In this document: positions 12,904-44,265 of the stretch, one piece after another
How positions within the stretch are numbered: the first letter of the stretch is position 1
Layout of the letters: each line of letters opens with the position of its first letter
Origin: an uncultured Pelagibacteraceae bacterium
GTDB lineage: Bacteria > Pseudomonadota > Alphaproteobacteria > Pelagibacterales > Pelagibacteraceae
NCBI GenBank assembly: GCA_902572225.1
Contig: CACGFJ010000005.1
Span: 1-49,482 of the forward strand
Direction of reading: 5' to 3'
DNA: 49,482 bases
The notes under the pieces: model-generated
Databases searched by the model: none
Seen by the model: the letters and a program-made list of their open reading frames with translations, nothing else
What the model was told of the DNA's origin: nothing
Translations under genes and position numbers: made by a program

Positions 12904-14193
12904 CTATTTTCCATCTATAGCAACAATCGTTAAATCATCTTTTTGTATATGACCTGCACCAAGAATATCATCAATCATTGTTTTAAGTCTATCGTTGATA
13001 GCCGTTGATTGATATTTTTTAATATAATTTTCAAAACCTTCAGATCCCAACATTTCACCATTTGGGTTTTTTATTTCAGTGATACCGTCTGTAAAAATAT
13101 ACATTGAGCTATCTTCAAAAGGAATAGTGTGTTCTGGATATTTTGTTTTTGGCATTATACCTAAAGGAGGACCAGCTTCAGAAAAATTACTAAAGGTTCC
13201 ATCAGCTGACAATATTAATGGAGGTTCATGACCTGCACTAGATAACAATAGCTCTTTTTTATTTGAATCGTATATTCCAATTAACATAGTAACAAACATA
13301 CCTCTTGATATAGTTTCACATATCTCATTATTTAATTGAAATAGTAAGTCAGACGCAGAAAAATTAGTTTTACTTAAACATCTATAAAGACTAGATGCTT
13401 TCGACATTAAGAGCGATGACTTTATGCCCTTTCCAGATACATCTGCAACTCCAAATCCATATTTTCCATCTCCTAAATCAGAAAAATTATAAAAGTCACC
13501 CGAAACAACCTTAGCTGGTATATTTATTCCCGAAATAGGAAAATCTTTTTCTTTATTTTTTGACAATAAAGATCGTTGGATTTCTCCAACGATTTCTACT
13601 TCTTTTTGTATTTTATTTTTTTCAACCATTTCTTTTGCCATTTTTGCATTTCTAATTGCTAAAGCAGCTGGTGCCGAAAGTGTTTCTAAAAGTTTTCTGT
13701 CATCTTCAATAAATAATTTATCTTCAGTTTTTTTATTTAAACAATGTATTACACCAATACATTCATTTGCAGCGATCAATGGTGAGCATAATACGGAATA
13801 AGTTGTAAAATTTGTTTTATTATCCAAATCAAAATAAAATTCTGCTATCTCTCGAACATCTTTTCTTACGTTACCAACACGAATACATTTTCTTTGCTGA
13901 ACAGCTTTACCCATAACTCCATCTTTCAAATCTAATTCATACTCATCTAAATAATCTTGATGAAGTGAGGCAATACATTCAAATTTTTTCTTCTGCTCAT
14001 TGATTAAAAAAATATTTGCGGCTTCTGCATTCAGTCTCGCAATTATAACTCTTAATGCATTCATCAGAGTATCATTTAAATCAAGAGATAATGCGAAGTC
14101 TTGATTCATTTTTGTGACAAGCTCTAAATCAACATTAACTTGTTCAGCTTCTTTTTTTGGTTCGATCGGTTTTTTTGATTTAAATAGAAACAT
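12904..14193 (-). CDS. GAF-domain PP2C/SpoIIE (RsbU-type) serine phosphatase
   Basis: Predicted cytosolic phosphatase that removes phosphate from a STAS anti-sigma antagonist. The 429 residues contain a GAF sensor domain (about 40-185), a short helical linker (186-212) and a PP2C/SpoIIE domain (about 213-429). The metal ligands are present: D233 in VVSGDFY, D251 in VADVSGKG, the FTDG motif near 374 and the final DDLT. No membrane segment is seen. It diverges from pilD and is convergent with rodA. With the STAS and kinase genes at 40029-40760 it could form a partner-switching pathway. The ligand of the GAF domain cannot be read from sequence. Confidence 0.9.
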   Translation of the reverse strand: MFLFKSKKPIEPKKEAEQVNVDLELVTKMNQDFALSLDLNDTLMNALRVIIARLNAEAANIFLINEQKKKFECIASLHQDYLDEYELDLKDGVMGKAVQQRKCIRVGNVRKDVREIAEFYFDLDNKTNFTTYSVLCSPLIAANECIGVIHCLNKKTEDKLFIEDDRKLLETLSAPAALAIRNAKMAKEMVEKNKIQKEVEIVGEIQRSLLSKNKEKDFPISGINIPAKVVSGDFYNFSDLGDGKYGFGVADVSGKGIKSSLLMSKASSLYRCLSKTNFSASDLLFQLNNEICETISRGMFVTMLIGIYDSNKKELLLSSAGHEPPLILSADGTFSNFSEAGPPLGIMPKTKYPEHTIPFEDSSMYIFTDGITEIKNPNGEMLGSEGFENYIKKYQSTAINDRLKTMIDDILGAGHIQKDDLTIVAIDGK

Positions 14194-14361: not shown

Positions 14362-15123
14362 GTGGATATAATATTTGTAATAATTCTAGGTGGCCTGTGG
14401 GGCAGTTTCGCAAATGTTTGTATTTATAGACTTCCTATAAATAAGGGAGTTGTATCAGGGAGATCATTTTGTCCAAATTGTAAAAAATTAATTACTTGGA
14501 AAGATAATATTCCTATAATTTCATTTCTATTTTTAAATGGTAAATGTAGAAATTGTAAAAAAAAAATTTCACCTCAGTATTTATTAATTGAGTTAATTAC
14601 TATTGTGTACTTCTTAGTGATTTATTACTTATTTGGTATCACTATAACTACCTTGTTGTTTTTAATTTTAGGATTGTCTTTTATTATAATCTTCTTCATA
14701 GATTTAAAGCATTATATCATTCCTAATATATTAACGTTTTCTTTGATGATTATTGGTTTTATAAAATCTTTTGATCCAAATTTAAATCCAATTTTTCCGA
14801 ATTTTATTAATTCTTTAATTGGAGGAATTTTTGGCTATTTGATTATTTGGTCTATAATTTATTTTTACAAACAAATAAGAAAAAAAGAGGGAATGGGTTT
14901 GGGAGATGCGAAACTTTTATCAGCAATCGGTTTCTGGTTTGGATGGATCTCGATACCCTTTGTGATATTTCTATCATCTATAATTGCTTTATTAAGTGTT
15001 ATTCCAAGTTTGTTAAAAAATTCAAAATCAATGTCTTCACAAATTCCTTTTGGACCATACATAATCATTGGAACATTAGTTTATCTTGTTTTTGAAAATA
15101 GTTTTAAATCACTTTTATTTTGA
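14362..15123 (+). CDS. pilD: Type IV prepilin peptidase / N-methyltransferase
   Basis: Inner-membrane aspartyl protease that cuts the leader from prepilins and methylates the new N-terminal residue. It has 253 residues and about seven or eight membrane helices. The N-terminal loop has the zinc-type cysteine pairs CPNC (37-40) and CRNC (62-65) found in bifunctional family members. The catalytic aspartates are in FFIDLKH (near 114) and GMGLGDAK (near 178-185). The start is GTG at 14362; no nearby in-frame ATG precedes the GGLWGSFANV segment that opens this family. It would process the seven or so pilin-like proteins encoded later in the window. Confidence 0.93.
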   Translation: MDIIFVIILGGLWGSFANVCIYRLPINKGVVSGRSFCPNCKKLITWKDNIPIISFLFLNGKCRNCKKKISPQYLLIELITIVYFLVIYYLFGITITTLLFLILGLSFIIIFFIDLKHYIIPNILTFSLMIIGFIKSFDPNLNPIFPNFINSLIGGIFGYLIIWSIIYFYKQIRKKEGMGLGDAKLLSAIGFWFGWISIPFVIFLSSIIALLSVIPSLLKNSKSMSSQIPFGPYIIIGTLVYLVFENSFKSLLF

Positions 15124-30943: not shown

Positions 30944-31577
30944 TACGACTCCATTTAAATTTATTTACATTACCAAATCTTGTCCATTCAACTAAGTAGG
31001 CAGGTTTTTCTAATCCTTTAGCATTACTAATAGGGCACTTTCCACCATTTTTTTTAGCGTTATCAAATGTACACAATATAATATATTGATCAGTAGCATT
31101 TGAAGGTTCGTCTAAAGTAACTCTTAATTGGTTTTTGATTTTACCTAAGGTTTTGTAATGTGTTCCATTTTGAGAAAAACATATTGAGCTTTCCCTATCT
31201 AAGTGTGTAGCTACATCATAAGTCTTGTTATCCACTTCAGAAGTCCAAAATGAACTTGATGTGTAACAATCCATTGGGTTGCCACTATTTAATCTATTAG
31301 TGTAAGCACTTCTAGACAATCCTCTTGTTATAATTAATGTTGAGTTACTACCATTAGGTTTGATGTAAACTTGCACAAAAGGAAGAGAGCCTCTTTGTGA
31401 TTGAGTGTTAATTGAATTAATCATATTAACAACTTTTTCAGTGGAAGCTCTTAACACTCTATCTTTGTTATAGTCCATAAAATTTGGAATACCAACAGCC
31501 GATACTATTGCTACAATTGAGATAACAACTAGCAATTCGAGTAATGTAAAACCTTTAATGTTCTGATCTTGCAGCAC
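30924..31577 (-). CDS. fimT: Minor pilin, FimT/GspH-like
   Basis: Predicted minor pilin of 217 residues. The leader ends NIKG and is followed by FTLLELLVVISIVAIVSAVGI. The start is GTG at 31577, inside the last 23 bases of pilT; no in-frame ATG precedes the prepilin motif. FimT/GspH-type proteins take part in pilus tip assembly and, in some bacteria, in DNA binding during transformation. Whether this one does so cannot be seen. It overlaps pilV by 20 bases. Confidence 0.83.
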   Translation of the reverse strand: MLQDQNIKGFTLLELLVVISIVAIVSAVGIPNFMDYNKDRVLRASTEKVVNMINSINTQSQRGSLPFVQVYIKPNGSNSTLIITRGLSRSAYTNRLNSGNPMDCYTSSSFWTSEVDNKTYDVATHLDRESSICFSQNGTHYKTLGKIKNQLRVTLDEPSNATDQYIILCTFDNAKKNGGKCPISNAKGLEKPAYLVEWTRFGNVNKFKWSRNGWTRM

Positions 31578-32571
31578 CTGGATCTATTTTCCCTGCTTTA
31601 GCTAATTCTTCTAATGATTTTTCCATTGTTATCATACCATCTCTTACTGCGGTTTGCATGATACTAGGAATTTGATGAATTTTAGCTTCTCTGATTAAGT
31701 TTTGTATTGGTGCAGTACATTTCATAATTTCAAATGCACCAACTCTACCAGCACCATCTCTAGTTTTTAATAATCTTTGTGTGACAACCATTTTTAAAGA
31801 CGTTGAAATTTGAGCTCTTATTTGTTCTTGTTGTTCAGGTGGAAACACATCAATAATTCTGTTTATTGTACTAGGTGCACCACTTGTATGAAGAGTTCCA
31901 AATACTAAGTGACCAGTTTCAGCAGCAGTTAAAGCAAGACTAATAGTTTCCAAGTCTCTCATTTCTCCAACTAAAATTACATCAGGATCTTCTCTGAGAG
32001 CTGCCTTTAAAGCTGCAGCAAATGTTTCGGTTTGTTTTCCAACTTCTCTGTGAGAGACAATACTTTTGTTATCTTGGTGTATAAATTCAACTGGATCTTC
32101 TACTGTAATAATGTTGGCAGTTCTCGTTTTATTTATTTCATTAACAATTGCTGCAAGTGTAGTTGATTTACCTGAACCTGTTGGACCAGTAACTAAAACT
32201 AAGCCTTTATGAAAGTCGACAATATCATAAAGAGATTGTGGTAAATTAAATTGATCCATTTCAGGAATTTTACTTTCTACTCTTCTACAAACACACGCTG
32301 GACCTTTTATTGTTTTATAAAAGTTTGCTCTAAATCTTAATCCACTTAATGTTACCGAAGTATCTAGTTCATGTGTTTTATCAAATTTATTCAATTCATG
32401 TTCATTACAGTTCATTGATAATAAATCTTTTATATCTTGAGCTGTAACCATTACATCTTGAACTTTAATAATTTCGCCTGTCTGTCTGTAAGCAAGAGGG
32501 GCACCAGCTCTAATATGAAAATCGGAAATCTTCTTGTTATTTTTTGCCAGTTCTTCTAATTTTTCAAACAT
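31555..32571 (-). CDS. pilT: Pilus retraction ATPase PilT
   Basis: Hexameric cytosolic motor that depolymerises pili. It has 338 residues, normal for PilT. Visible are the N-terminal PAS-like domain (SDFHIRAGAPLAYRQTGEI), Walker A GPTGSGKS (129-136), the Asp box, Walker B DVILVGEMRD, the His box GHLVFGTLHT and a version of the AIRNLIRE element (PIQNLIREAKIHQI). It is the first gene of the minus-strand pilus operon and overlaps fimT by 23 bases. No second retraction ATPase (PilU) is present in the window. Confidence 0.95.
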   Translation of the reverse strand: MFEKLEELAKNNKKISDFHIRAGAPLAYRQTGEIIKVQDVMVTAQDIKDLLSMNCNEHELNKFDKTHELDTSVTLSGLRFRANFYKTIKGPACVCRRVESKIPEMDQFNLPQSLYDIVDFHKGLVLVTGPTGSGKSTTLAAIVNEINKTRTANIITVEDPVEFIHQDNKSIVSHREVGKQTETFAAALKAALREDPDVILVGEMRDLETISLALTAAETGHLVFGTLHTSGAPSTINRIIDVFPPEQQEQIRAQISTSLKMVVTQRLLKTRDGAGRVGAFEIMKCTAPIQNLIREAKIHQIPSIMQTAVRDGMITMEKSLEELAKAGKIDPGAARSEH

Positions 32572-32697: not shown

Positions 32698-34413
32698 ATG
32701 AAAAATCCTTTTGCAAATCTTTTTAAGAAAAAGAGTAAAGATGGTGAACCAGATAAACCTGTACCAAAGCCAGATGCAGGTAAAAAGAAAGAGGGTTTTT
32801 TTAGTAAACTATTAAAAAATAGGTTAGGAAAATCCTCAATTAAAGGTGAAGAAATTTTAGGTGTTGAATTGACATCAAACGAAATTAGGCTTGCTCAAGT
32901 ATCAAGCAATAAAGCAAACCAATGGGTTTTAGATAAATTTTATGTTCATAAATTTGATGGAGTTCCTGAGGGTGGAACTGTTTTAGAAAATCAGGATAAA
33001 ATTGCAGAAGAATTAAAGTTAGCTTTATTAAAATCAAAAGTTTCAACAACAAACGCTGCAATAGCAATTCCAGTCACTAGTGCAATCATTAGAGTGGTGA
33101 CTGCACCTTTGATGACAGAAGAAGAGTTAAAAAAAGCGATTGATACAGACTCACTTTGGGAAAATTTAGTTCAACTAACAGATAACTTAGCAGATTATTC
33201 AATATTCCATCAGGTTATAAATAAAGATGAAAAAGCTAACACGATGGATATTTTGTTTGTTGCCTCAAAACTTTCAGACATTAATAGCTATACAGCAATC
33301 ATTAAAAAGGGTGGACTAAATGCTGTAATTATTGATGTTAAATGTTTCGCTTTAAAATCTGCAGTAGACCAAATAAATCAAATAGCTGGTTCAATTGAAG
33401 ACTCAAATTTAACAGCAGTTTTAGAATTTGGATTAGATGAGAACTATGTAATGATACTTTATGAAAATAATCCAATCATCACTGATATTTTTATAAGAGC
33501 TCAAGACAGAAAAACTTTATCTGAAAGTAATAATCAAGAGGAAATGGATGCTTTGGTTAGAAGATATATGACACAGGTCAAGCAAGCAGTTCAAGATTTT
33601 GAAACAAAATATGAAAAAAGAATTAGAAATTTAAAAGTTACTTCTAATTTACCTAATGTTGAGGACTATTTAGCAAGCTTTAGAAAGAATATGGTTAATA
33701 CTGGTTATAATCTTTTTAATCCATTTGATGGAATTAAAGTTCCTGCACAGATAGAAAATGAAACTAAATTAAGTAACCCTTCTTATTTTTCTACAGTTAT
33801 GGGTTTAGCATTTAGAAAGCTGGATGTATTTGGTTATTATAAATTCGTAACTGCAGTAAAGAATATAAACCTTCTTCCTAACCGAGAAAATATGATAGCT
33901 CAGAAAAAAGCAAAAGCATTCTCTAATTTTGCATTTAAAGGGATAGCAGGAATTGTTGTAGTTATATACGTTGTTCTATTTGGATTTTCATTTTGGCAAA
34001 TTACTGACTTAAATAAAAAAATTGCAGGATATGAGGAAGTAATTCAAACACACGAATTAAGAACATTAGAAAGAAATAAATATCTTAAAGAGAAAAAATT
34101 AATGGATAAATCCTTAGAATTGAGTAACTCTATCAAATCAAATAAAACAATAAGTTTTAGAGTATTAGCTCAAATAGCATCAGCAGTACCCAAAAGAGTA
34201 AAATTTGACTCAATTGAATATAACGGATCAGATTTAGTTATTATTCAAGGATCAGCATTTAGTGATCAAGATATATTAAAATTAATCAGCAATTTAAATA
34301 ATAAAAAATTAATTTCACAAGCATCCCTTGCTAGCATGACTTTGCCAAATGAACAACAAGGCTCACAAACTATGAAGGGTTTTAAAATTGCCTGTATATT
34401 GGAGAACATATAA
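32698..34413 (+). CDS. pilM: Fused PilM-PilN inner-membrane platform protein
   Basis: Platform protein of the pilus machine, 571 residues, combining two normally separate proteins. After a Lys-rich N-terminal tail (1-45) comes an actin-like PilM domain (about 52-385, opening ILGVELTSNEIRLAQVS). The sequence then has NLLPNREN (from about 390), the start motif of PilN, followed by a membrane helix (about 412-432), a periplasmic coiled coil (433-470) and a ferredoxin-like periplasmic domain. The same arrangement is known in GspL of type II secretion and, as I recall, MshI of MSHA pili. It shares its last base with the pilO start. Confidence 0.88.
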   Translation: MKNPFANLFKKKSKDGEPDKPVPKPDAGKKKEGFFSKLLKNRLGKSSIKGEEILGVELTSNEIRLAQVSSNKANQWVLDKFYVHKFDGVPEGGTVLENQDKIAEELKLALLKSKVSTTNAAIAIPVTSAIIRVVTAPLMTEEELKKAIDTDSLWENLVQLTDNLADYSIFHQVINKDEKANTMDILFVASKLSDINSYTAIIKKGGLNAVIIDVKCFALKSAVDQINQIAGSIEDSNLTAVLEFGLDENYVMILYENNPIITDIFIRAQDRKTLSESNNQEEMDALVRRYMTQVKQAVQDFETKYEKRIRNLKVTSNLPNVEDYLASFRKNMVNTGYNLFNPFDGIKVPAQIENETKLSNPSYFSTVMGLAFRKLDVFGYYKFVTAVKNINLLPNRENMIAQKKAKAFSNFAFKGIAGIVVVIYVVLFGFSFWQITDLNKKIAGYEEVIQTHELRTLERNKYLKEKKLMDKSLELSNSIKSNKTISFRVLAQIASAVPKRVKFDSIEYNGSDLVIIQGSAFSDQDILKLISNLNNKKLISQASLASMTLPNEQQGSQTMKGFKIACILENI

Positions 34414-35051
34414 TGGACTTAAAAAATATTACTATGGACGACCTAAAGCAGAAATTTTCTACTATAGATAAAAAGACACTTATAAAGTTTGGAATTGGAT
34501 TTGGAGCAATAATCCTTTTCTTGATAATTTATTATGCAATCTTAAACCCAATGGTTAAAGAGAGAAAAGCAAAATACCAAGATAAAATTCAAAAAGAACA
34601 AGAAATAGTGGAATTTGAGAGCAATATAATTTCACTAAAAAAAACTATAAAAAAAATGAAACCAAAATTTGAGGAGACATCAACGTTGTTTCACTCAAAA
34701 GCTGAAGTTGAAGATCTTTATCAAAGTCTCAGTAAGCATGCAGCAGTCAATGGTTTGGTTATTTCAAAAATAGAAAAGAAAGAGCCAAAACCAGTTTTAA
34801 AAGTTGGAGTGACAGATCAATCAGAAAACAATCTTCAAAAAGAAATGGTTTCATATTACAAAATCCCTGTAGACTATGAAATTAAAGGAAATTTCTTGGG
34901 TTATATAAAGTTCAAAAGAGCAGTATCTAAGCAAAAGAAAATGTTAAATTTTGACAAAGAGACAATAAGTGTAGTACAAAACGATTCAACTGGAGCGATA
35001 GTTGCGACGGGAGAGTTAACGATAGTGGGAATGCCAGATGAATTTTTTTAA
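34413..35051 (+). CDS. pilO: Pilus platform protein PilO
   Basis: Bitopic inner-membrane protein that pairs with PilN beneath the secretin. The 212 residues have a short cytoplasmic start, one membrane helix (about 25-43), a periplasmic coiled coil (about 50-90) and an alpha/beta domain with the SKHAAVNGLVISKIEKKEP segment typical of PilO. It overlaps the upstream gene by one base and pilP by 14 bases. Confidence 0.88.
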   Translation: MDLKNITMDDLKQKFSTIDKKTLIKFGIGFGAIILFLIIYYAILNPMVKERKAKYQDKIQKEQEIVEFESNIISLKKTIKKMKPKFEETSTLFHSKAEVEDLYQSLSKHAAVNGLVISKIEKKEPKPVLKVGVTDQSENNLQKEMVSYYKIPVDYEIKGNFLGYIKFKRAVSKQKKMLNFDKETISVVQNDSTGAIVATGELTIVGMPDEFF

Positions 35052-35487
35052 AATATTAATTTTTTTATCTTTAATGTTAATACCTACGATTTCTTTTTCT
35101 GATAGCCATGATCAAAAGAAAGAAGTTTTAGAACAGGTAAAAGAAATTGCTAAAGAAATGGAAGATGATGAAGAGGTTCCTCTAAATGATCCTTTTGCAG
35201 GAAATGAGGGAACAAGTTCGATGTCTGGGAATATACCTGAAGATGAACAGGAAAATGAACTAAGTTTATATAATTTTAAATTAGCAGGGCTTATATCGGG
35301 AAAAGATTATAGCTATATATCAATCGTTAATTCTGGTGGAGAAGTTTTAACTTTATCTCTTGGACAATATTTAGGAAAAATCCAACTTGTTGATTTAAGA
35401 TTAAATGAGGCAATATTTAAAAAAGAAGATGGAAAATACATGATTATAGATTTTAACAGTCAAGTTAGAGAGGCAGATGATTATTAA
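35038..35487 (+). CDS. pilP: PilP-like periplasmic pilus protein (non-lipidated)
   Basis: Predicted connector between the PilN/PilO platform and the secretin. It has 149 residues with a signal peptide (about 1-22, SFS then DSHDQ). There is no Cys, so it is not a lipoprotein, unlike the classical PilP. An acidic unstructured stretch (25-75) precedes the small beta domain (LYNFKLAGLISGKDYSY onward, about 79-140) that matches the PilP homology region. It overlaps both neighbours by 11-14 bases. Confidence 0.8.
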   Translation: MNFFKILIFLSLMLIPTISFSDSHDQKKEVLEQVKEIAKEMEDDEEVPLNDPFAGNEGTSSMSGNIPEDEQENELSLYNFKLAGLISGKDYSYISIVNSGGEVLTLSLGQYLGKIQLVDLRLNEAIFKKEDGKYMIIDFNSQVREADDY

Positions 35488-37039
35488 AAAATATTATAAT
35501 ACTATACTTGTTATATTATTTGCATTTTTACTAAGTGCTTGTGGTCCAAACTCACAATTTGGAAAAAAGTATAATAAACCTTTCAAACACAATTCTCCAT
35601 TAATTAAAGATCAAAACATAGTAGATTCAGGAAAATCTGAAGTCGCTAAAACTTTAGAGATGGGTCCTAAACCACTAGAAGGAGACTCTAGAAAATTAGG
35701 AAAAAGAAAGAAAATATCATCTGAAGCTCAGAGAAACTATTTAATCATCTCTGACGATTATCCATTATTAAAGCAGAGAGTTACACTAAAATTTAAAAAC
35801 TTGGATTATAAGGAAACCATGAAGTTAATGGGCAAAATTGGTGAGATTAATATTTTAGTTGGTGATGAAGTCGCTGGAGCAATTTCAGCAGAATTAATTG
35901 ACGTTCCTTGGGATAAAGCTTTTCAGGCTTTATTAGATATGAAGAATTTTGCATCTGATGTAGATGTTGCAAGTAACTTAATCAGGATTCATTCACCAGA
36001 AACATTAACTGCACAAGAAACTTATAAATCTGAAAGAGCACAAGCCGTTAAAAAGAAAGTAGAATTAGAAGACAGTGTTGAGCCTATCTATTCTGAAATA
36101 TTTAGACTTTATTACATAACGCCAGCTCAAGCTAAACAAACAATTGAAGAATTATTTACACAATCTTCAGGTGATAGTTCTTATACACCAATACAAATAA
36201 CAGAGGAAGTTACCACTCGATCAATTATTGTTAGAGGTAAAGAAAAAGATTTAGATGTAGTTGATAAAGTTGTTAAAGAAATAGATATTAGAACGAAACA
36301 GGTATTAATTGAAGCTTTTATAGTTGAAGCTAATTCAGATTTTGAAAGAGCGCTTGGTTCTAGACTTGGAGGTTATTATAACAGAAGAGGTAAAATATCT
36401 GGTGGTACAGCAAGTACTAGTAGTGGAAGTGCATTTGGTACTGATTTAGATACAGCTGCTGGTCTAGGAGCTGCAACAGATAGTTTAGCTAATTTCCCTG
36501 TAACTGGCGCAACAAGTGGTATCGGAATTTTGAGAAGAACTGGCACAGGTGTTCTTAAAGCTGAGATTACTGCTTTAGAGAGCATAGGCATGGGTAAAAC
36601 AATTTCAAATCCAAAAGTATTCACTTTAGACAACCAATTAGCAACAGTTACACAAGGTGAAGAAATTCCTTATCAAACAACATCTGACGGAACAACTTCT
36701 ACGTCATTTAAAGAAGCTGCATTAAAACTAGAAGTTACACCAAGTATAATTGGTGATGGAAACGTTTTACTGACTATTAAGGTAAATAATGATACTCCAA
36801 ATAGATCAGCAGGAGGAGATGAGCCTCCAATTAATAAAATGGAAATTGTAACTAAATTGTTAGTTGCTGATGGTGATATTGTTGTAATTGGTGGAATTAA
36901 GAAAAATGTAGTATCTCAAAGTAAAAATCAAACACCAGGCATTGGAAATATGCCTGTAATTGGTAACCTCTTTAAAGGTAAGGCAAATTCTGATAACCTA
37001 GATGAATTATTGGTATTTATAGCACCAAGAATTTTATAA
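35477..37039 (+). CDS. pilQ: Outer-membrane secretin, PilQ/MshL-like, predicted lipoprotein
   Basis: Forms the outer-membrane pore for the pilus. It has 520 residues, shorter than typical PilQ (about 700), because the N-terminal AMIN domains are missing. The leader ends with the lipobox LLSAC (Cys near 22), so it is predicted to be lipidated. N0/STN (about 105-165), an N1-type domain (about 205-275) and the secretin domain (about 280-520) follow, with the VPxxG-like NMPVIGNLF segment near the C-terminus. It starts 11 bases inside pilP and ends one base into pilB. The lipobox and short length are closer to MshL than to PilQ. Confidence 0.92.
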   Translation: MIIKKYYNTILVILFAFLLSACGPNSQFGKKYNKPFKHNSPLIKDQNIVDSGKSEVAKTLEMGPKPLEGDSRKLGKRKKISSEAQRNYLIISDDYPLLKQRVTLKFKNLDYKETMKLMGKIGEINILVGDEVAGAISAELIDVPWDKAFQALLDMKNFASDVDVASNLIRIHSPETLTAQETYKSERAQAVKKKVELEDSVEPIYSEIFRLYYITPAQAKQTIEELFTQSSGDSSYTPIQITEEVTTRSIIVRGKEKDLDVVDKVVKEIDIRTKQVLIEAFIVEANSDFERALGSRLGGYYNRRGKISGGTASTSSGSAFGTDLDTAAGLGAATDSLANFPVTGATSGIGILRRTGTGVLKAEITALESIGMGKTISNPKVFTLDNQLATVTQGEEIPYQTTSDGTTSTSFKEAALKLEVTPSIIGDGNVLLTIKVNNDTPNRSAGGDEPPINKMEIVTKLLVADGDIVVIGGIKKNVVSQSKNQTPGIGNMPVIGNLFKGKANSDNLDELLVFIAPRIL

Positions 37040-38787
37040 TGATTAACATAAGTAGAGAATCAGAGATTAATTTAATTAATATCCTCATAGACCAAGATAT
37101 TATTTCTGGGAAAGATTTAGCTGAAATTAAAAAAGTTTCAAGCGATGGAAACAAGTCACAGTTAGATGCAGTATTTGAATTAAATCTAACAGATGAACAA
37201 AAAATTTTAGATCTATTAGTCCATGACCAATCATTAGATGTAGTTGATTTGTCAACAATTCAAGTTACTGAAGAGCTAAAAGCTGTTCTACCTTCCAATT
37301 ATATAAATATGAATTTTATAGCACCATTTAAAATTGAAGGAAAAGTTTTACATATCGCAATTTCAGATATCTCAAAGCTAAGTTTGATGAGAAACTTAAG
37401 AACTATTACTAAAATGGATATTGAGCTTCATGCAGCAAAAGTTTCGGATATTTCAAACTTTGTAGATAAACTTTTAGCAGATGGTGAAAAAACTATTTCA
37501 GACATTAGACAAACTCAGGCAGAAAAAACTAAAACATTTGATTACGACGTTGATGAACAAGCTGAAGTTTTAGAAAGCCAACCCGAAGAAGATATAGAAG
37601 CAATCGAAAACGAGTCTGAAGTAATTAAATTTAGTACAGCTGTTGTTGCTGATGCGATTAAATCAGGTGTATCTGATATTCACATTGAACCATATAGATT
37701 TAGTTCAAGAGTAAGATACAGATTAGATGGTATTCTTACAGAGCAAGAGCATTTCAAAAAATTTTTACACTCTAATTACGGCGCAGTTGTTACAAGATTT
37801 AAAATTATGGGAAAATTAGATATTGCAGAAAGAAGACTTCCACAAGATGGAGCTATACCATTTAAAATTGATGGTAAAGTAGTTGATTTACGTCTTTCAA
37901 TTCTTCCAACAGCAACTAATGAAAGAATTGTAATGAGGGTTCTTAATAAAGATGCAGGAGATATAAGTTTAGAGCAATTAAATTTTGAAGAAACGGATTT
38001 AAAAAATTTAAGAAAAGCAATTCATGGTACACAGGGACTAGTACTTGTTACAGGTCCAACAGGTTCAGGAAAAACAACAACTTTGTACAGTATTCTTAAA
38101 GAAGTTTCTAAACCTCATCTAAATATTTTAACGGCTGAAGATCCAGTTGAGTATGAACTAGATGGTGTGGGGCAGGTTCAAATTAAAGATGATATTGGTT
38201 TTAACTTTGCAACAGCGTTGAGATCTTTTTTAAGACAAGACCCAGAGATTATTTTAGTTGGAGAGATGCGGGATAAAGAAACAGTTGATATAGGATTAAA
38301 AGCAGCGCTTACAGGACACTTAGTTTTCAGCACACTACACACAAATGATGCCCCAAGCACTATTACAAGATTACAAAATATGGGTACTCCAGATTATTTA
38401 ATAAGTGCGGCTGTTAGTTTGGTTTTAGCACAAAGACTAGCAAGAAAAACTTGCACTGAATGCAGAGAGCCAGACAATGACATTACTCCAAAAGCACTAG
38501 CTGACTTAGGCTTTACTGTTGAACAAGCATCAAGAGCAAAAGTACAAAAGGGAAAAGGTTGTCCAAAATGTAAAGATACTGGATACAAAGGTCGAATGGG
38601 AATATATGAAATATTAAATGTTACAAAACCAATAAAAGAAGCAATATTACGAAAAGCTACAACACCAGAGTTAAAAGAAATTGCATCTAATGAAGGTTTC
38701 AGAACAATGCAAGATATGGGAAGAGAACTTATATTAACTGGAGACTTAAATTTCAGAGAATTTGATAGAGTTCTTTCTATGGATTAA
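37039..38787 (+). CDS. pilB: Pilus extension ATPase PilB
   Basis: Cytosolic hexameric motor that drives pilus polymerisation. It has 582 residues. The N-terminal MshEN-type domain occupies about 1-150; the ATPase core contains RLPQDGA, Walker A GPTGSGKT (339-346), LTAEDPVEYE, Walker B IILVGEMRD and the His box GHLVFSTLHTNDAP. The C-terminal zinc module has two Cys pairs, CTEC (near 472-475) and CPKC (near 508-511). All elements are intact. The MshEN region is a known c-di-GMP site in some homologues; the binding motif is not clear enough to claim it here. Confidence 0.95.
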   Translation: MINISRESEINLINILIDQDIISGKDLAEIKKVSSDGNKSQLDAVFELNLTDEQKILDLLVHDQSLDVVDLSTIQVTEELKAVLPSNYINMNFIAPFKIEGKVLHIAISDISKLSLMRNLRTITKMDIELHAAKVSDISNFVDKLLADGEKTISDIRQTQAEKTKTFDYDVDEQAEVLESQPEEDIEAIENESEVIKFSTAVVADAIKSGVSDIHIEPYRFSSRVRYRLDGILTEQEHFKKFLHSNYGAVVTRFKIMGKLDIAERRLPQDGAIPFKIDGKVVDLRLSILPTATNERIVMRVLNKDAGDISLEQLNFEETDLKNLRKAIHGTQGLVLVTGPTGSGKTTTLYSILKEVSKPHLNILTAEDPVEYELDGVGQVQIKDDIGFNFATALRSFLRQDPEIILVGEMRDKETVDIGLKAALTGHLVFSTLHTNDAPSTITRLQNMGTPDYLISAAVSLVLAQRLARKTCTECREPDNDITPKALADLGFTVEQASRAKVQKGKGCPKCKDTGYKGRMGIYEILNVTKPIKEAILRKATTPELKEIASNEGFRTMQDMGRELILTGDLNFREFDRVLSMD

Positions 38788-38790
38788 TAA

Positions 38791-40032
38791 ATGTCCTCAG
38801 AAACATTTACATATAAAGGTATTTCAGCAGGCAAATATATTGAGGGTGAAATAGAAGCCTTAAATCAAGAGGAGGCGTCATATAAGCTTAAAGAACAAAA
38901 GATAATAATCACTAATTTAGTTAAAACTAAAAAGAAAAAAGCAGCTAAAGAAAAAGGTAAAAAAAGCAGTTTTTCTTTTGGAAAGAAAAAAATTACGCCT
39001 CAAGATGTAATGATTTTCTCAAAACAATTTGCAACCATGGTTAAGGCAGGTCTTCCAATTTTAAATGTACTTTCAATGTTACGTGATCAAATTGAGCATC
39101 CAACAATGAAAGAAATTATTGAGGATATTAGAAAAAGTCTAGAAGGAGGTATCACACTTTCAAAATGCTTTGAAAAATACCCAAAGGTTTTTGATAATAT
39201 TTATATAAACTTAATAAAAGCAGGTGAAGCTAGTGGTAAATTGGATGTTTTCTTACTCAAATTAGTAGATTCACTAGAAAAAAGAGAAAAAGTTAAAAAG
39301 AAAATTAAAAGTGCATTAACCTATCCTGTTGTCATGTTTACAGTAGCAATAACTGTAATGGTATTCATGTTAATTAAAGTTGTTCCAATATTTGCTGAAA
39401 TGTATGAAGGAATGGGAGTACCATTACCAACTCCAACTGCAGTTATTATGAATGCTAGTAATTTTATGAGAGGAGCAGGTGGTTTAACTTTATTTTTTGT
39501 TTTTGCAATAGGATTTGCTATCTTTAAATACACAACAACTAAAATACCTGCCGTAAGATATAAATGGCATTATAGAGTTTTAAAAATGCCTGTATTTGGA
39601 GATATGATTTTAAAATCTCTAATTGCAAGAGTATCTCTTATTATGGGTAACCTTAGCTCTGCAGGTGTAAATTTGCTAGAGAGTATAGAAATTGCAAAAC
39701 AAGTAAGCAATAATGATGTTGTTACTCAAGCTTTAGAAAATGTTAAAAAAGGTGTTTTTTCAGGAGACACATTAACTAAACTATTTTTAAAAGAGCCAGT
39801 ATTCCCGCCAACTTTTAGTCAATTAATATCTGTCGGTGAACAAACTGGTAATTTGGATGAAATGTTTACATCAGTATCAGCTTATTATGAAGAAGAGTTT
39901 GATACAGCTGTTGATAATATGTCGAGTTTAATTGAGCCGATTATGATTGTATTTATGGGAACAATGATCGGTGGCTTAATGATAGCTATGTATTCACCAA
40001 TCTTTAATGTCGGTGCAATTATTGGAAGTTAA
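38791..40032 (+). CDS. pilC: Pilus inner-membrane core protein PilC
   Basis: Polytopic platform protein driven by PilB and PilT. It has 413 residues with two type II secretion F domains (about 70-195 and 275-398), membrane helices near 180, 225 and 385, and a Lys-rich stretch (45-66) after the N-terminal domain. Conserved GLPI, GEASGKLD and GEQTGNLDEM segments are visible. It closes the plus-strand pilus machine operon, three bases after pilB, and its end overlaps the convergent kinase gene by four bases. Confidence 0.94.
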   Translation: MSSETFTYKGISAGKYIEGEIEALNQEEASYKLKEQKIIITNLVKTKKKKAAKEKGKKSSFSFGKKKITPQDVMIFSKQFATMVKAGLPILNVLSMLRDQIEHPTMKEIIEDIRKSLEGGITLSKCFEKYPKVFDNIYINLIKAGEASGKLDVFLLKLVDSLEKREKVKKKIKSALTYPVVMFTVAITVMVFMLIKVVPIFAEMYEGMGVPLPTPTAVIMNASNFMRGAGGLTLFFVFAIGFAIFKYTTTKIPAVRYKWHYRVLKMPVFGDMILKSLIARVSLIMGNLSSAGVNLLESIEIAKQVSNNDVVTQALENVKKGVFSGDTLTKLFLKEPVFPPTFSQLISVGEQTGNLDEMFTSVSAYYEEEFDTAVDNMSSLIEPIMIVFMGTMIGGLMIAMYSPIFNVGAIIGS

Positions 40033-40457
40033 TAATTTATTTTTTTAGACAAAATTAAATGGTTAATCCAAGGCTTTTCGCCTTCTTTAAATACTACTGC
40101 ATCCATTATTTGTTGAATAAAAAAAGTTCCAAGTCCTCCAGGTTTAATATCATCAATTTTTCTATGTCGAATTTTATCTTTTTCAACTGGTCTTCCTTTA
40201 TCAAAAAATCCAATTTCTAAATTTCCATTTGATAAAGAAATTTTAATCTCCATTTTATCTTCAGTATCTTCACCTTGGTAAGCATGTTTTACAATATTTT
40301 GGGCTGCTTCTGCTATTGCTAGTACAAGTTCATCTTTTAAATCTTGATCAATATTTACTTTTTCAAAAACTTCTCTTGAAAAACTTCTTACATCTTTAAG
40401 ACTAGATGAACTTACAACAAAATCTCTTTGTTCTGATATTTGAGCAAGGTTATTCAT
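40029..40457 (-). CDS. RsbW/SpoIIAB-like anti-sigma-factor kinase (HATPase)
   Basis: Predicted serine kinase of a partner-switching system that phosphorylates the adjacent STAS protein. It has 142 residues, normal for the family. The Bergerat-fold motifs are the N box AIAEAAQNIVKHAY (N54), the G1 box FFDKGRP (D86) and the G2 box PGGLGTFFIQ (about 106-114). It follows the STAS gene with a three-base gap, as rsbV-rsbW usually do, and overlaps the end of pilC. No sigma factor gene is seen nearby, so the output partner is unknown and may not be a sigma factor. Confidence 0.9.
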   Translation of the reverse strand: MNNLAQISEQRDFVVSSSSLKDVRSFSREVFEKVNIDQDLKDELVLAIAEAAQNIVKHAYQGEDTEDKMEIKISLSNGNLEIGFFDKGRPVEKDKIRHRKIDDIKPGGLGTFFIQQIMDAVVFKEGEKPWINHLILSKKINY

Positions 40458-40460
40458 TAT

Positions 40461-40760
40461 TTATCCTAAGTTTAAAATTTGCTCCAGTTTTGCCATCATA
40501 ATTACTTTTAAAACTGACTTACTAATATCTTTTAAAATGACTTTTGTTCCAAGTTCAGTTGCTTTTTGATGACTTTCAATTAGTACAGATATTCCAGATG
40601 AGTCCATATACTGGACTTCTTTTAGATTTAGATGAACTTCTTTTTTTGCCTCAATAAGAGGCATTATAACTTCTTTTGCCTTTTCAGTTACATCCATATC
40701 AATTTCACCATCAAGGTGAACAATTGATATTTCGCCTTCTTCTGTTACTTTGTATGACAT
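40461..40760 (-). CDS. STAS-domain anti-sigma-factor antagonist (RsbV/SpoIIAA-like)
   Basis: Predicted small switch protein of 99 residues made of one STAS domain. The phosphorylation loop reads YMDSSGISVL; by comparison with SpoIIAA the target serine is S55. The N-terminal strand contains IVHLDGEIDM. In the family model, the unphosphorylated form captures the kinase and the PP2C phosphatases reset it. It is transcribed together with the kinase, toward pilC, and its start faces the pilin gene across a 142-base spacer. Confidence 0.92.
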   Translation of the reverse strand: MSYKVTEEGEISIVHLDGEIDMDVTEKAKEVIMPLIEAKKEVHLNLKEVQYMDSSGISVLIESHQKATELGTKVILKDISKSVLKVIMMAKLEQILNLG

Positions 40761-40902
40761 AATTATTAATATTTATTAAATTTCCCAATGAAATCAACAA
40801 AAATGACCCATTTTGAATATATTATGTATGTAGATATTGACTTTTAAAAGATATAATTATTATGTATATACATATTTTTTATTTAAAATAGGATCATAAA
40901 TT
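40761..40902. promoter_or_regulatory. Divergent control region of STAS/kinase and pilin genes
   Basis: Contains TTGACT at 40837-40842, two near-identical 12-base units ATTATGTATGTA (40821-40832) and ATTATGTATATA (40859-40870), and a perfect 14-base palindrome TATGTATATACATA (40861-40874) overlapping the second unit. A -10 consistent with the TTGACT would fall on the palindrome (TATGTA, 18-base spacer). TATAAT at 40852 is too close to that -35. A GGATC-like element precedes the pilin ATG. I saw no RpoN-type -24/-12 site. Confidence 0.45.
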
Positions 40903-41370
40903 ATGAAAAAAAATAATAAAGGTTTTACACTTATAGAATTATTAGTTGTTGTAGCCATCATTGGTATTTTAGCTGCCGTTGGAGTAGTTGCTTATTCTGG
41001 TTACACAAAGGGAGCAAAAAAATCAGCTGTTAAATCAAATCAAGCAGCAGTACTTAAGTATGTGGCTGCTGAGCTTAAAAAATGCGAAATTGGGGAGACT
41101 GAAGTGATGGTCAAAGGCACAAAAAAATTGACTTGTGCTAACAGAAAATCTTCAGGAAATGTTGCGACGGCTACAAATGATGCTTTAGGATCAGAATTTA
41201 AAAATCCTTATACGACATCTAATTCTGCAATCAAAACAACTAAATTAACTTCTTGTGGTACAGGTGATGAAGGTTATACAAGTGTCACAGATAATGGTAC
41301 CACAGTAGAAATTATATCTTGTGAAGTCAGTGGAGCCACTTTGCTGACAGGCACTGTTACCATAGAATAA
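40903..41370 (+). CDS. pilA: Major type IV pilin PilA (probable)
   Basis: Predicted pilus fibre subunit of 155 residues. The short leader MKKNNKG is followed by FTLIELLVVVAIIGILAAVGV, a perfect type IVa prepilin motif with Glu at mature position 5. The globular domain has four cysteines (in KKCEIG, LTCANR, TSCGTG and ISCEV), which could form two disulfides. It has its own upstream control region, short leader and separate position from the minor pilins, which favours the major-pilin role; expression level cannot be judged here. Confidence 0.88.
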   Translation: MKKNNKGFTLIELLVVVAIIGILAAVGVVAYSGYTKGAKKSAVKSNQAAVLKYVAAELKKCEIGETEVMVKGTKKLTCANRKSSGNVATATNDALGSEFKNPYTTSNSAIKTTKLTSCGTGDEGYTSVTDNGTTVEIISCEVSGATLLTGTVTIE

Positions 41371-41385
41371 AGTAAAAAAATTCTT

Positions 41386-41793
41386 ATGACAACCAGGAGC
41401 TCAGGTTTTACCTTAATTGAGCTTTTGGTTGTTGTTGCAATTCTTGGAATAATTTCAGCAATAGGAATAGTAAGCTATAACGGCTACGTTTCGTCAGCAA
41501 AAAGGAAATCTGCAGAAAATATAATTTTACAAATTTCGCTTGCACAAAGTGAATTCTACTCCGATGAGGATGAATATTTTACTCCTGGATGCGGACCTAA
41601 TAATTCAACATCGACTACTTTAGAAACAAAACTACTTGGTGGGTCCGACGTTATTACCCCTGAGATTGGTTATGAATTTTGTTCTCAAGGATCTGCGGAA
41701 ACTTATACAATTATTGCTCAAGAAACTGGAGCTAAATCACCATGCAAAATTGAATATACAGATAAGTCTGTTTGGACACGAACAAATTGTTAA
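41386..41793 (+). CDS. Second type IV pilin, PilE/PilA-like
   Basis: Predicted pilin of 135 residues, beginning MTTRSSG then FTLIELLVVVAILGIISAIGI. The helix continues to SLAQSEFYSDEDEYF, a segment characteristic of PilE-like pilins. Four cysteines lie in the globular region (PGCGPN, EFCSQG, SPCKIE and the final Cys), the last closing a C-terminal loop. It follows the first pilin by 15 bases and is probably cotranscribed. It could be a minor pilin or an alternative major subunit. Confidence 0.85.
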   Translation: MTTRSSGFTLIELLVVVAILGIISAIGIVSYNGYVSSAKRKSAENIILQISLAQSEFYSDEDEYFTPGCGPNNSTSTTLETKLLGGSDVITPEIGYEFCSQGSAETYTIIAQETGAKSPCKIEYTDKSVWTRTNC

Positions 41794-42047: not shown

Positions 42048-42114
42048 CCAACCTATTTTGACCATCTATTTTCTATGATGAACTTTAAAATAAATATAAC
42101 CTTAAGAGGATGAA

Positions 42115-44265
42115 GTGGAGAATATAGATCTGGAATCGGTTAAGTCATTTGTAGATACTCTTTGGGTTATAGATTGCGCTATACTTGTTTTTATAATGCA
42201 AGCAGGTTTCATGTGCATGGAAACAGGTTTATCAAGACATAAAAATAGCATTAACGTGGCTCTTAAAAATGCTGCTGACTTCGGTCTCGCGGTTGTAATT
42301 TTTTGGATATTTGGTTTTGGTTTAATGTTTGGAAAAAGTTTTAATGGGTATTTTGGTACTGACTTGTTCTTTTTTAAAACTGATCAAGCTGAATACATGA
42401 CATATTTTGTATTCCAAGCAATGTTCGTTGCAACTGCAGCTACAATTGTTTCAGGAGCTGTTGCTGAAAGAATGAAGTTCAATGGTTATTTAATAATCAC
42501 TATTATAGCTACTGGAATAATATATCCAATAGTTGGCCATTGGGCATGGTCATCAAGTTATTTAAATAATATTGATGCTACAAGACAATTACTTGCAGTA
42601 ACTGGGCAAGTTAAAACCACTGGATGGCTGACAGATATTGGATTTGTTGACTTTGCAGGAAGCACCATTGTTCACTCAGTTGGAGGTTGGATTGCATTAT
42701 CGGCAGTTTTAATTTTAGGTCCTAGAATAGGAAAATATTCAGATGCAAACAAAGGAAAATTCACAGGATCAAGTTTCCCTTTAGCAGTATTGGGAACTTT
42801 AATTTTATGGTTTGGATGGTTTGGTTTTAATGGTGGAAGTAATGGAGCTATGGATGATGCCGTTCCACTAATTTTAATAAATACATTTCTTGCTGCTTCT
42901 TTTGGTTTATTAACAGGTCTTGGAATTTCATTTGCATTGTTTAAAAAACCAGATCCTTACTATGTAATCCTTGGACCACTTGCAGGGTTAGTTGCAATCA
43001 CAGCAGGATGTAATTCGATGACATCAGTGACCTCGATCTTTGTTGGAATTATAGGAGCGGTTGTTGCAATTTTTGTAAATGAATTTTTAAATAAATTTGA
43101 AATCGATGATGTTGTTGGAGCTGTTCCTGTTCATTTAGCAGCAGGGGTTTGGGGAACTATTGCAGTTGGATTATTTAGCGATCTTGAAATACTTGGAACA
43201 GGATTAACTAGACTAGAACAAATCAAAGTTCAATTTATTGGAATTGTTTCAATCGGCGTATTCTCATTTTTTGGATCTTATATTTTATTGAAAATTTTAA
43301 ATTACTTTTATCCATTAAGAGTAAGTCCATTGCACGAAGAATTAGGTTTGAATATTGCTGAACATAATGCAACTTCTGTTGAACACGATTTAATTACTAT
43401 TTTAGAAAAACAGTCTGAATCTGGTGACTTAACTATTAGAGGTCCACAAGATCCATTTACTGCTGGAGGTGTGATCGGTCTTTATTACAATAGATTGATG
43501 AACAAACTAGAAACCAGTGAAGCTGAAAAGAAAGTGTGGAGAGACAGAATTTCAAATGAAGTAAAACTTGCAGTAAAAGTCCAAGAAAACTTTTTACCAA
43601 AAAGAAATTTAGAAAATTACCCTGTGCACGGAATTAATATTGCTGCTAGAGAAGTTTCTGGAGATTTCTTCAGCTTTTACCCCCACAATGATAGTGTTTA
43701 CTTTATTATTGCAGATGTTGCTGGCAAAGGAATTCATGCCGGAATGGTAATGGCAAAAGCATCAACTTTATTTGAGATTATGTCTAGAGATCAAGTAGAT
43801 CCAGATGAAATGATGTTTCATATGAATAATGATCTATTTTTAACTAAAACTGGAGGAATGTTTGTTACTAGTATTTTGGGAGAATATAATATGAGGACTG
43901 ATGAATTAAGATGGGTAAATGGAGGTCATCAACCAGCTTTAATTAGATCATCATCTGGAAATTATGAACAATTTGAAAGTAATTCACCACCAATGGGAGT
44001 AATACTTCAAAAGGATAAATCAGTTTATAAAACTCACAAAATTAAGCTAGAAAATAACAGATTTTATGCGTTCACCGATGGTTTATCTGAAAGTTTAAAT
44101 AGCTCAGGTGAAGAAATAGGAATAGATGGATCATTAAAAATAATAGAGCAAAATTTCAATACAGATTCTAGCAAACAATTATCAGATATATCAAATTCAG
44201 TAATTAATACTGCTGGGGATAATAAGTTAAGTGACGACTTAACCCTAATATCAATAGGTAAATAA
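42115..44265 (+). CDS. Ammonium transporter fused to PP2C/SpoIIE serine phosphatase
   Basis: Single 716-residue protein. Residues 1-400 are a full Amt/MEP/Rh channel with about eleven membrane helices; conserved features include the pore Asp and first twin His in DFAGSTIVHSVGGW, the second His in VPVHLAAGVWGTI, and QAMFVATAATIVSGAVAER. The usual Amt C-terminal HEELGLNIAEHN (from 404) is followed by a HAMP-like linker (SGDLTIRGPQDPFTAGGVIG), a helix (460-500) and a PP2C/SpoIIE domain (504-716) with its metal motifs SGDFFSF, IADVAGKGIHAG, FTDGLSE and DDLTLISIG. The start is GTG with AGAGGA four bases upstream. Predicted to import or sense ammonium and dephosphorylate a STAS protein, perhaps the one at 40461. 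Confidence 0.92.
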   Translation: MENIDLESVKSFVDTLWVIDCAILVFIMQAGFMCMETGLSRHKNSINVALKNAADFGLAVVIFWIFGFGLMFGKSFNGYFGTDLFFFKTDQAEYMTYFVFQAMFVATAATIVSGAVAERMKFNGYLIITIIATGIIYPIVGHWAWSSSYLNNIDATRQLLAVTGQVKTTGWLTDIGFVDFAGSTIVHSVGGWIALSAVLILGPRIGKYSDANKGKFTGSSFPLAVLGTLILWFGWFGFNGGSNGAMDDAVPLILINTFLAASFGLLTGLGISFALFKKPDPYYVILGPLAGLVAITAGCNSMTSVTSIFVGIIGAVVAIFVNEFLNKFEIDDVVGAVPVHLAAGVWGTIAVGLFSDLEILGTGLTRLEQIKVQFIGIVSIGVFSFFGSYILLKILNYFYPLRVSPLHEELGLNIAEHNATSVEHDLITILEKQSESGDLTIRGPQDPFTAGGVIGLYYNRLMNKLETSEAEKKVWRDRISNEVKLAVKVQENFLPKRNLENYPVHGINIAAREVSGDFFSFYPHNDSVYFIIADVAGKGIHAGMVMAKASTLFEIMSRDQVDPDEMMFHMNNDLFLTKTGGMFVTSILGEYNMRTDELRWVNGGHQPALIRSSSGNYEQFESNSPPMGVILQKDKSVYKTHKIKLENNRFYAFTDGLSESLNSSGEEIGIDGSLKIIEQNFNTDSSKQLSDISNSVINTAGDNKLSDDLTLISIGK

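Follow-up and report, generated by a model that had tools for sequence, protein, structure and literature searches.

Partner switches of the RsbU-RsbV-RsbW and SpoIIE-SpoIIAA-SpoIIAB type in Bacillus join a kinase, a STAS phospho-acceptor and a phosphatase, and kinases of the RsbW type as a rule recognise only their own STAS partner. In several described systems the STAS protein provides the output and no sigma partner is known, namely those of RbaV (PMC3999984), HmpV (as given in the description in PMC6495340) and SypA (PMC8256260). The alphaproteobacterial RbaV-RbaW-RbaY system of Rhodobacter capsulatus controls gene transfer agent production; no sigma partner was found for it, and genetics point to the STAS protein as the output (PMC3999984). 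HmpU-V-W of Nostoc punctiforme, as described in PMC6495340 (citing Riley 2018), controls hormogonium development and affects a type IV pilus-driven process through a STAS output. In the HsbR-HsbA-HsbD system of Pseudomonas aeruginosa, STAS phosphorylation feeds motility and biofilm formation and touches twitching and pilus assembly (PMC5085249). On the input side, the ammonium sensor histidine kinase Ks-Amt5 provides a case in which an ammonium transporter (Amt) domain is fused to a cytoplasmic signalling enzyme (PMC5764959).

Here we describe a SAR11 locus that resembles each of these in part, found in a 49,482-nucleotide stretch (the window) of an uncultured Pelagibacteraceae assembly (GCA_902572225.1, contig CACGFJ010000005.1) that is 72% complete. 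It contains the same three protein families as the Bacillus systems, with the kinase, phospho-acceptor and phosphatase residues intact, but unlike them it has no cognate alternative sigma factor, lies inside a pilus locus and draws on several sensor-phosphatases, an Amt fusion among them. We read it, with a probability of about 0.6, as a complete partner switch, free of any sigma factor and dedicated to the type IV pilus of SAR11, in which sensor-bearing PP2C phosphatases would oppose the kinase and so set pilus expression or activity. It differs from Rba, in which RbaY has an N-terminal receiver domain whereas the SAR11 phosphatases carry GAF or Amt domains (PMC3999984), and from Hsb, which acts via FlgM and a diguanylate cyclase and combines kinase and phosphatase in one protein (PMC5085249).

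The first-pass annotation, made from the letters of the window, had placed adjacent STAS and RsbW-like genes between pilC and the pilins, overlapping the end of pilC. Domain searches identify both genes where it had put them (Table 1), and the overlap is one of 4 nt between the pilC stop and the convergent 3' end of the kinase gene. Only 3 nt separate the kinase and STAS genes, and the pair is divergent from pilA1.

Table 1. Features of the switch and the pilus locus; coordinates are those of the window except where a locus is named.
Feature	Coordinates	Strand	Product and evidence	Setting
GAF-PP2C phosphatase	12904..14193	-	429 aa; PF07228 2e-41 + GAF	adjoins pilD
pilD, prepilin peptidase	14362..15123	+	ORF; named by sequence resemblance	adjoins GAF-PP2C
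pilT, retraction ATPase	31555..32571	-	ORF; near relatives 85-96% identical	divergent from pilM
pilM/N, pilO, pilP, pilQ, pilB operon	32698..38787	+	ORFs; counterparts in relatives
pilC, type IV pilus platform	38791..40032	+	PF00482 1e-61	convergent neighbour of kinase
RsbW/SpoIIAB-like serine kinase (HATPase_c_2)	40029..40457	-	142 aa; PF13581 E 9e-20
STAS protein (RsbV/SpoIIAA-like)	40461..40760	-	99 aa; PF01740 E 4e-17
cis element ACCCATTTTGA	40806..40816	+		divergent STAS/pilA1 promoter region
pilA1, pilin with N-methylation motif	40903..41370	+	PF07963 1e-10	divergent from STAS
pilA2, ComP-like minor pilin	41386..41793	+	PF16732 7e-9, PF07963 4e-8
cis element ACCTATTTTGA	42051..42061	+		64 bp before Amt-PP2C start codon
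Amt-PP2C fusion	42115..44265	+	716 aa; PF00909 6e-111, PF07228 7e-35
lipoprotein-like insert (L118, L119, L121, L123, L125-L130)	L118:10417-10710 (example)

The pair has the residues expected of a working kinase and substrate. The N-box E50..N54, D86xG88 and KPGGLG motifs that define a GHKL serine kinase are invariant across 14 relatives, and an AlphaFold2 model of the kinase (mean pLDDT 76) matches SpoIIAB (1til, 1l0o) and RsbW (6m37) best, sigma-bound forms among them. On the STAS side, whose matches are RsbV, SpoIIAA and TM1442, the MDSSGIS motif with its D-S-S-G phospho-acceptor signature is invariant in 17 sequences including a tandem paralogue, and Ser55 in the Y-M-D-S-S-G loop is the predicted phospho-acceptor. 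The kinase is the only HATPase_c_2 match above the family cut-off in the assembly; it is 100% identical to that of the SAR11 single-cell genome AG-913-B14, and all but one of its 80 best matches are labelled Pelagibacteraceae or Candidatus Pelagibacter, while none of 107 pattern matches in viral contigs was a relative. In L030-L033 and L175 the STAS gene is duplicated in tandem (94 and about 99 aa) with the DSSG loop in both copies, the second of which may serve as a decoy or provide another output.

Around the pair lies a full set of pilus genes, those from pilM/N to pilB being named by sequence resemblance, with PilM and PilN domains confirmed on one relative. PilM and PilN are fused in a single ORF in L023-L036 (e.g., L032:299-2665), and many relatives have an additional N-terminal extension of more than 200 residues. 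The pilus region of the window also encodes two large proteins with repetitive passengers (15166-17745 and 21417-24065), which we call autotransporter-like from the appearance of their sequences and regard as adhesin candidates.

Two phosphatases are encoded in the same window and are the sole PP2C matches in the assembly. The gene just past the pilins fuses an ammonium transporter/sensor domain (residues 17-420) to a SpoIIE-type PP2C domain (residues 526-714), and the GAF-PP2C gene adjoins pilD, an adjacency repeated in L035, L183 and L211. Both proteins, together with seven relatives, contain the PP2C metal-ligand motifs SGD, DVxGKG, (T/S)DG and DDxT, so that the STAS protein, the kinase and two motif-intact phosphatases make up a complete partner switch and not an orphan pair. 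Sister genomes replace or supplement this set with a CHASE2-PP2C accompanied by FecR and a TPR-barrel protein, or with a second Amt-PP2C. A small secreted-looking protein with the metal-binding-like CxxC motif MCIKCQKM adjoins the second Amt-PP2C (L175:9575-9904, L023:5099-5461, L177:13664-14017), and its L175 copy has no Pfam match.

The Amt domain is closest to the solved Amts 8qj3 and 8qpf (E about 1e-119), whose proteins of 644-661 aa are longer than a bare Amt, followed by Ks-Amt5 (6eu6, 1e-84) and E. coli AmtB (1e-29). We scored seven Ks-Amt5 ammonium ligands (Q24, E31, N47, D50, T51, T109 and T112; PMC5764959), without an assimilatory Amt as control: five (Q, E, N, D and T109) are identical, T112 is conservatively replaced by Ser, and T51, unlike in Ks-Amt5, is Phe. 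This pattern of five ligands and one conservative change is the same in 72 of 72 Amt1-type and 30 of 30 Amt2-type proteins, all of which keep the Amt covalently joined to the signalling enzyme. The largely retained ligands make ammonium sensing plausible, and the Amt-PP2C may thus read external ammonium. The fusion further departs from Ks-Amt5 in that its output enzyme is a PP2C phosphatase and that F27 alone of the three bulky pore-blocking residues is kept; since transporter pore residues are retained and T51 is Phe, plain transport is also possible. If the Amt signals to the phosphatase by way of a helical linker, this would agree with the mechanism put forward for PPM phosphatases (PMC12143880). 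Plasmid matches to the fusion are confined to its Amt part, reaching into the linker at the furthest (best 70% of the query), and in our search of the openly licensed literature neither the Amt-PP2C fusion nor the present switch turned up.

The arrangement pilA< STAS> kinase> <pilC is invariant in 80 further loci and, being kept so widely, cannot be put down to chance: counting only loci whose contig extends far enough, STAS lies upstream of the kinase in 78 of 78, pilC downstream in 80 of 80, and a divergent pilin is present in 76 of 76. The order is also kept in the assessable stretches of relatives with one exception, a divergent closed genome in which the kinase lies near pilT. Mean identity across loci is 94% for STAS, ahead of PilC (92%) and the kinase (87%), the two neighbours with which it was compared; this higher conservation mildly favours STAS as the output-bearing partner. 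Ten loci have a gene for a 97-98-aa lipoprotein-like protein (LTGCAQSVAVLGP...) between the kinase and pilC, behind pilC, and a similar protein is encoded near the Amt-PP2C genes of L176 and L184.

Across 218 genomes of the genus, the window's own assembly and 217 others that are at least 85% complete, kinase and PilC occur together in 92, PilC alone in seven and neither in 119, and no genome has the kinase alone. The first-pass annotation would have had to give way had relatives carried the pair in the absence of pilus genes, or had a cognate alternative sigma factor come to light; neither was seen in this genus. The seven genomes with PilC alone comprise two contig-edge fragments and five with a different pil locus (L204-L208). 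This second kind of SAR11 pil locus (L204-L209), with a PilC about 64% identical and pilins straight after pilC, contains no STAS, kinase or PP2C gene, which indicates that the switch is not part of every SAR11 pilus system; genome G264 has both kinds (L184, L209). Mapped on a tree of RpoD from 28 genomes, the switch/pilus trait is scattered and requires at least 10 changes, four of them forced by well-supported branches, so joint gain or loss has happened repeatedly. Because the genes are physically linked in one island, their co-occurrence could in part reflect hitch-hiking, and joint loss is partly expected. Separately, divergent pil clusters (L037, L178, L179, L180, L265 and L266) have an RsbW-like kinase, 33-44% identical, near pilT; no STAS gene was found beside this kinase in the divergent genomes (e.g., G012, G089 and G268), and the cluster of G012 (L180) has, at its far end, a CHASE2-PP2C, TPR-barrel and FecR set.

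A search widened from SAR11 to the whole class gave matches in 26 of 386 genomes, most of them distant. In L268, L270-L273 and L275, STAS, HATPase and GAF-PP2C genes are adjacent, with no pil genes in the stretch read. In the distant alphaproteobacterium of L269 the order is pilA< | STAS> GAF-PP2C> HATPase> | <pilC <pilB, the same slot as in SAR11, which supports the SAR11 GAF-PP2C, encoded near pilD in the window, as part of the same switch.

As the first-pass annotation had noted, the window contains no sigma factor gene, and we took up its suggestion to look for sigma factors across the genome. The whole assembly gives two Sigma70_r2 matches, both on other contigs, and each of ten SAR11 genomes with a completeness of 97% or more likewise has exactly two such genes, of rpoD and rpoH size, in agreement with the published SAR11 set of RpoD and RpoH (PMC13198564); among the ten are six single-contig genomes that encode either the kinase or its divergent relative. 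Since near-complete genomes hold only these two, the lineage has no dedicated alternative target of the sigma-70 family, and a strict anti-sigma system with such a target is ruled out. The kinase might instead be an anti-sigma factor for RpoD or RpoH themselves, with its pilus linkage incidental, much as Chlamydia RsbW acts on sigma66 (PMC8256260); its fold is nearest to SpoIIAB and RsbW, sigma-bound forms included, and RpoD and RpoH, the only candidates present, both bear Ser/Thr phosphosites in HTCC1062 (PMC13198564). We consider this unlikely, as more than half of the genus genomes at least 85% complete have no kinase, all 11 of the kinase-less ones sampled keep RpoD, the closed genome G065 has both sigma factors but no kinase, PilC or PP2C, and none of the genomes has the kinase but lacks the pilus.

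A quasi-palindromic DNA element, ACCYAWTWTGR (or, with a looser centre, ACCYAWWWTGR), links the switch genes to the pilus genes. Its two exact matches in the window compare with 0.74 expected by chance (17 of 100 shuffles reach two), so the count there is unremarkable and the weight comes from relatives, examined as non-redundant sets of 160-bp upstream sequences. The element occurs upstream of pilA1 in 13 of 49 sequences (0.11 expected) and, in the same gap, of STAS in 9 of 31; it also precedes the Amt-PP2C gene in 11 of 21 (0.06 expected), pilM in 4 of 29 (0.03 expected; eight with the looser centre) and fecR in 3 of 12 (0.00 expected; five with the looser centre). As the pattern was derived by inspecting the pilA1/STAS alignment, the pilM and fecR sets test it more independently. 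It was absent from the relatives' sets upstream of the kinase, DAO, EamA and the remaining pil genes, the exceptions being pilV (two), pilT (one, in the gap shared with pilM) and pilO (one with the looser centre); in the window itself, the gap between pilT and pilM holds no more than a degenerate version that mismatches at two positions. The shared promoter element suggests a single regulon of pil genes, Amt-PP2C and the operon of STAS and kinase.

Such a distribution bears on a further explanation, that what the switch governs are other functions encoded beside it, for instance autotransporter adhesins, the uptake of ammonium or the use of amines, its link to the pilus being only one of shared residence in a hypervariable island. 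The island does hold genes for a DAO-family oxidase, EamA and autotransporters beside the Amt-PP2C gene, in the HTCC1062-like L175 a copy of the element is found close to an autotransporter gene as well, and hypervariable region HVR1 of HTCC1062 has been described as devoted to transport and secretion (PMC2217521). Against this, the flanking cargo varies among genomes whereas pilC-kinase-STAS-pilA is fixed, the same slot is occupied in the distant pil locus L269, and the element clusters ahead of pil and switch genes; we find the explanation improbable.

The locus can probably also be placed in HTCC1062, for which a phosphoproteome is available. In the HTCC1062-like genome G269 (a single contig of 1,308,759 bp), tandem Amt-PP2Cs, two pilins, two STAS genes, the kinase and pilC follow an order that fits the published one from SAR11_0049 to 0057, in which SAR11_0049 and 0050 are ammonium transporters and 0053 and 0054 pilins (PMC2217521), and rsbW is SAR11_0057 (PMC13198564). 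The 2025 study reported 1014 phosphosites on 555 proteins, with RsbW, itself seen in the proteome, as the sole annotated Ser/Thr kinase and six annotated phosphatases, none predicted to act on proteins (PMC13198564). G269 encodes four PP2C domains of the SpoIIE type with intact catalytic motifs, two as part of an Amt fusion, and these SAR11 PP2Cs are candidate opponents of RsbW that could fill the place of the protein phosphatases reported missing (PMC13198564). The fourth (L210:8827-9693), in which we identified no sensor domain, is apparently SAR11_1218 of hypervariable region 4; it lies between two pilin-like genes and adjoins a globin-like gene. That the kinase is instead a general SAR11 Ser/Thr kinase behind this widespread phosphoproteome, as suggested for SAR11_0057 on its standing as the only annotated and detected enzyme of its kind, we reject as highly improbable because it is missing from so many SAR11 genomes (no match in 126 of 218, closed G065 included), and the main-lineage kinase always adjoins the gene of a STAS substrate, to which RsbW-type kinases normally confine themselves.

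We return to the sigma-free switch dedicated to the type IV pilus. Its gene content, intact active-site residues, fixed linkage and co-occurrence with the pilus, the lack of other sigma factors and the shared element are observed; the phosphorylation, the ammonium sensing and the output, whatever its sign, are what we infer. The kinase would phosphorylate STAS on Ser55, and the sensor-bearing PP2Cs would strip this phosphate in response to their own inputs, the Amt fusion to ammonium and the GAF protein to some ligand; in sister genomes the CHASE2 protein beside FecR would do likewise. The phosphorylation state of STAS would then decide which partner STAS or the kinase holds, and with it pilus gene expression or pilus activity. 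By analogy with the STAS-output systems, STAS itself is most likely the output and, free or phosphorylated, would act on a pilus regulator or on the machine. The first-pass reading of a partner switch thus stands in its tie to the pilus locus and its want of a dedicated sigma factor, but it had overlooked the two PP2Cs, the Amt fusion and the cis element; the outputs that it suggested, pilus assembly, adhesin display or a non-sigma target, are candidates. More tentatively, and at somewhat less than even odds, we propose that an Amt turned membrane phosphatase reports external ammonium directly to this sigma-free switch controlling type IV pili.

SAR11 are the commonest bacteria of the ocean, and to our knowledge they have almost no known regulators, and their response to nitrogen limitation is described as one without PII. 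If our reading is true, SAR11 would have nitrogen supply connected to pili in a single step, and the phosphatases of the switch would be the enzymes so far lacking to oppose the one Ser/Thr kinase annotated in SAR11. That kinase would acquire a likely substrate in STAS, likely opponents in the PP2Cs, a likely input in ammonium and a likely output in pili, raising the question of what the most abundant heterotroph of the ocean uses its pili for.
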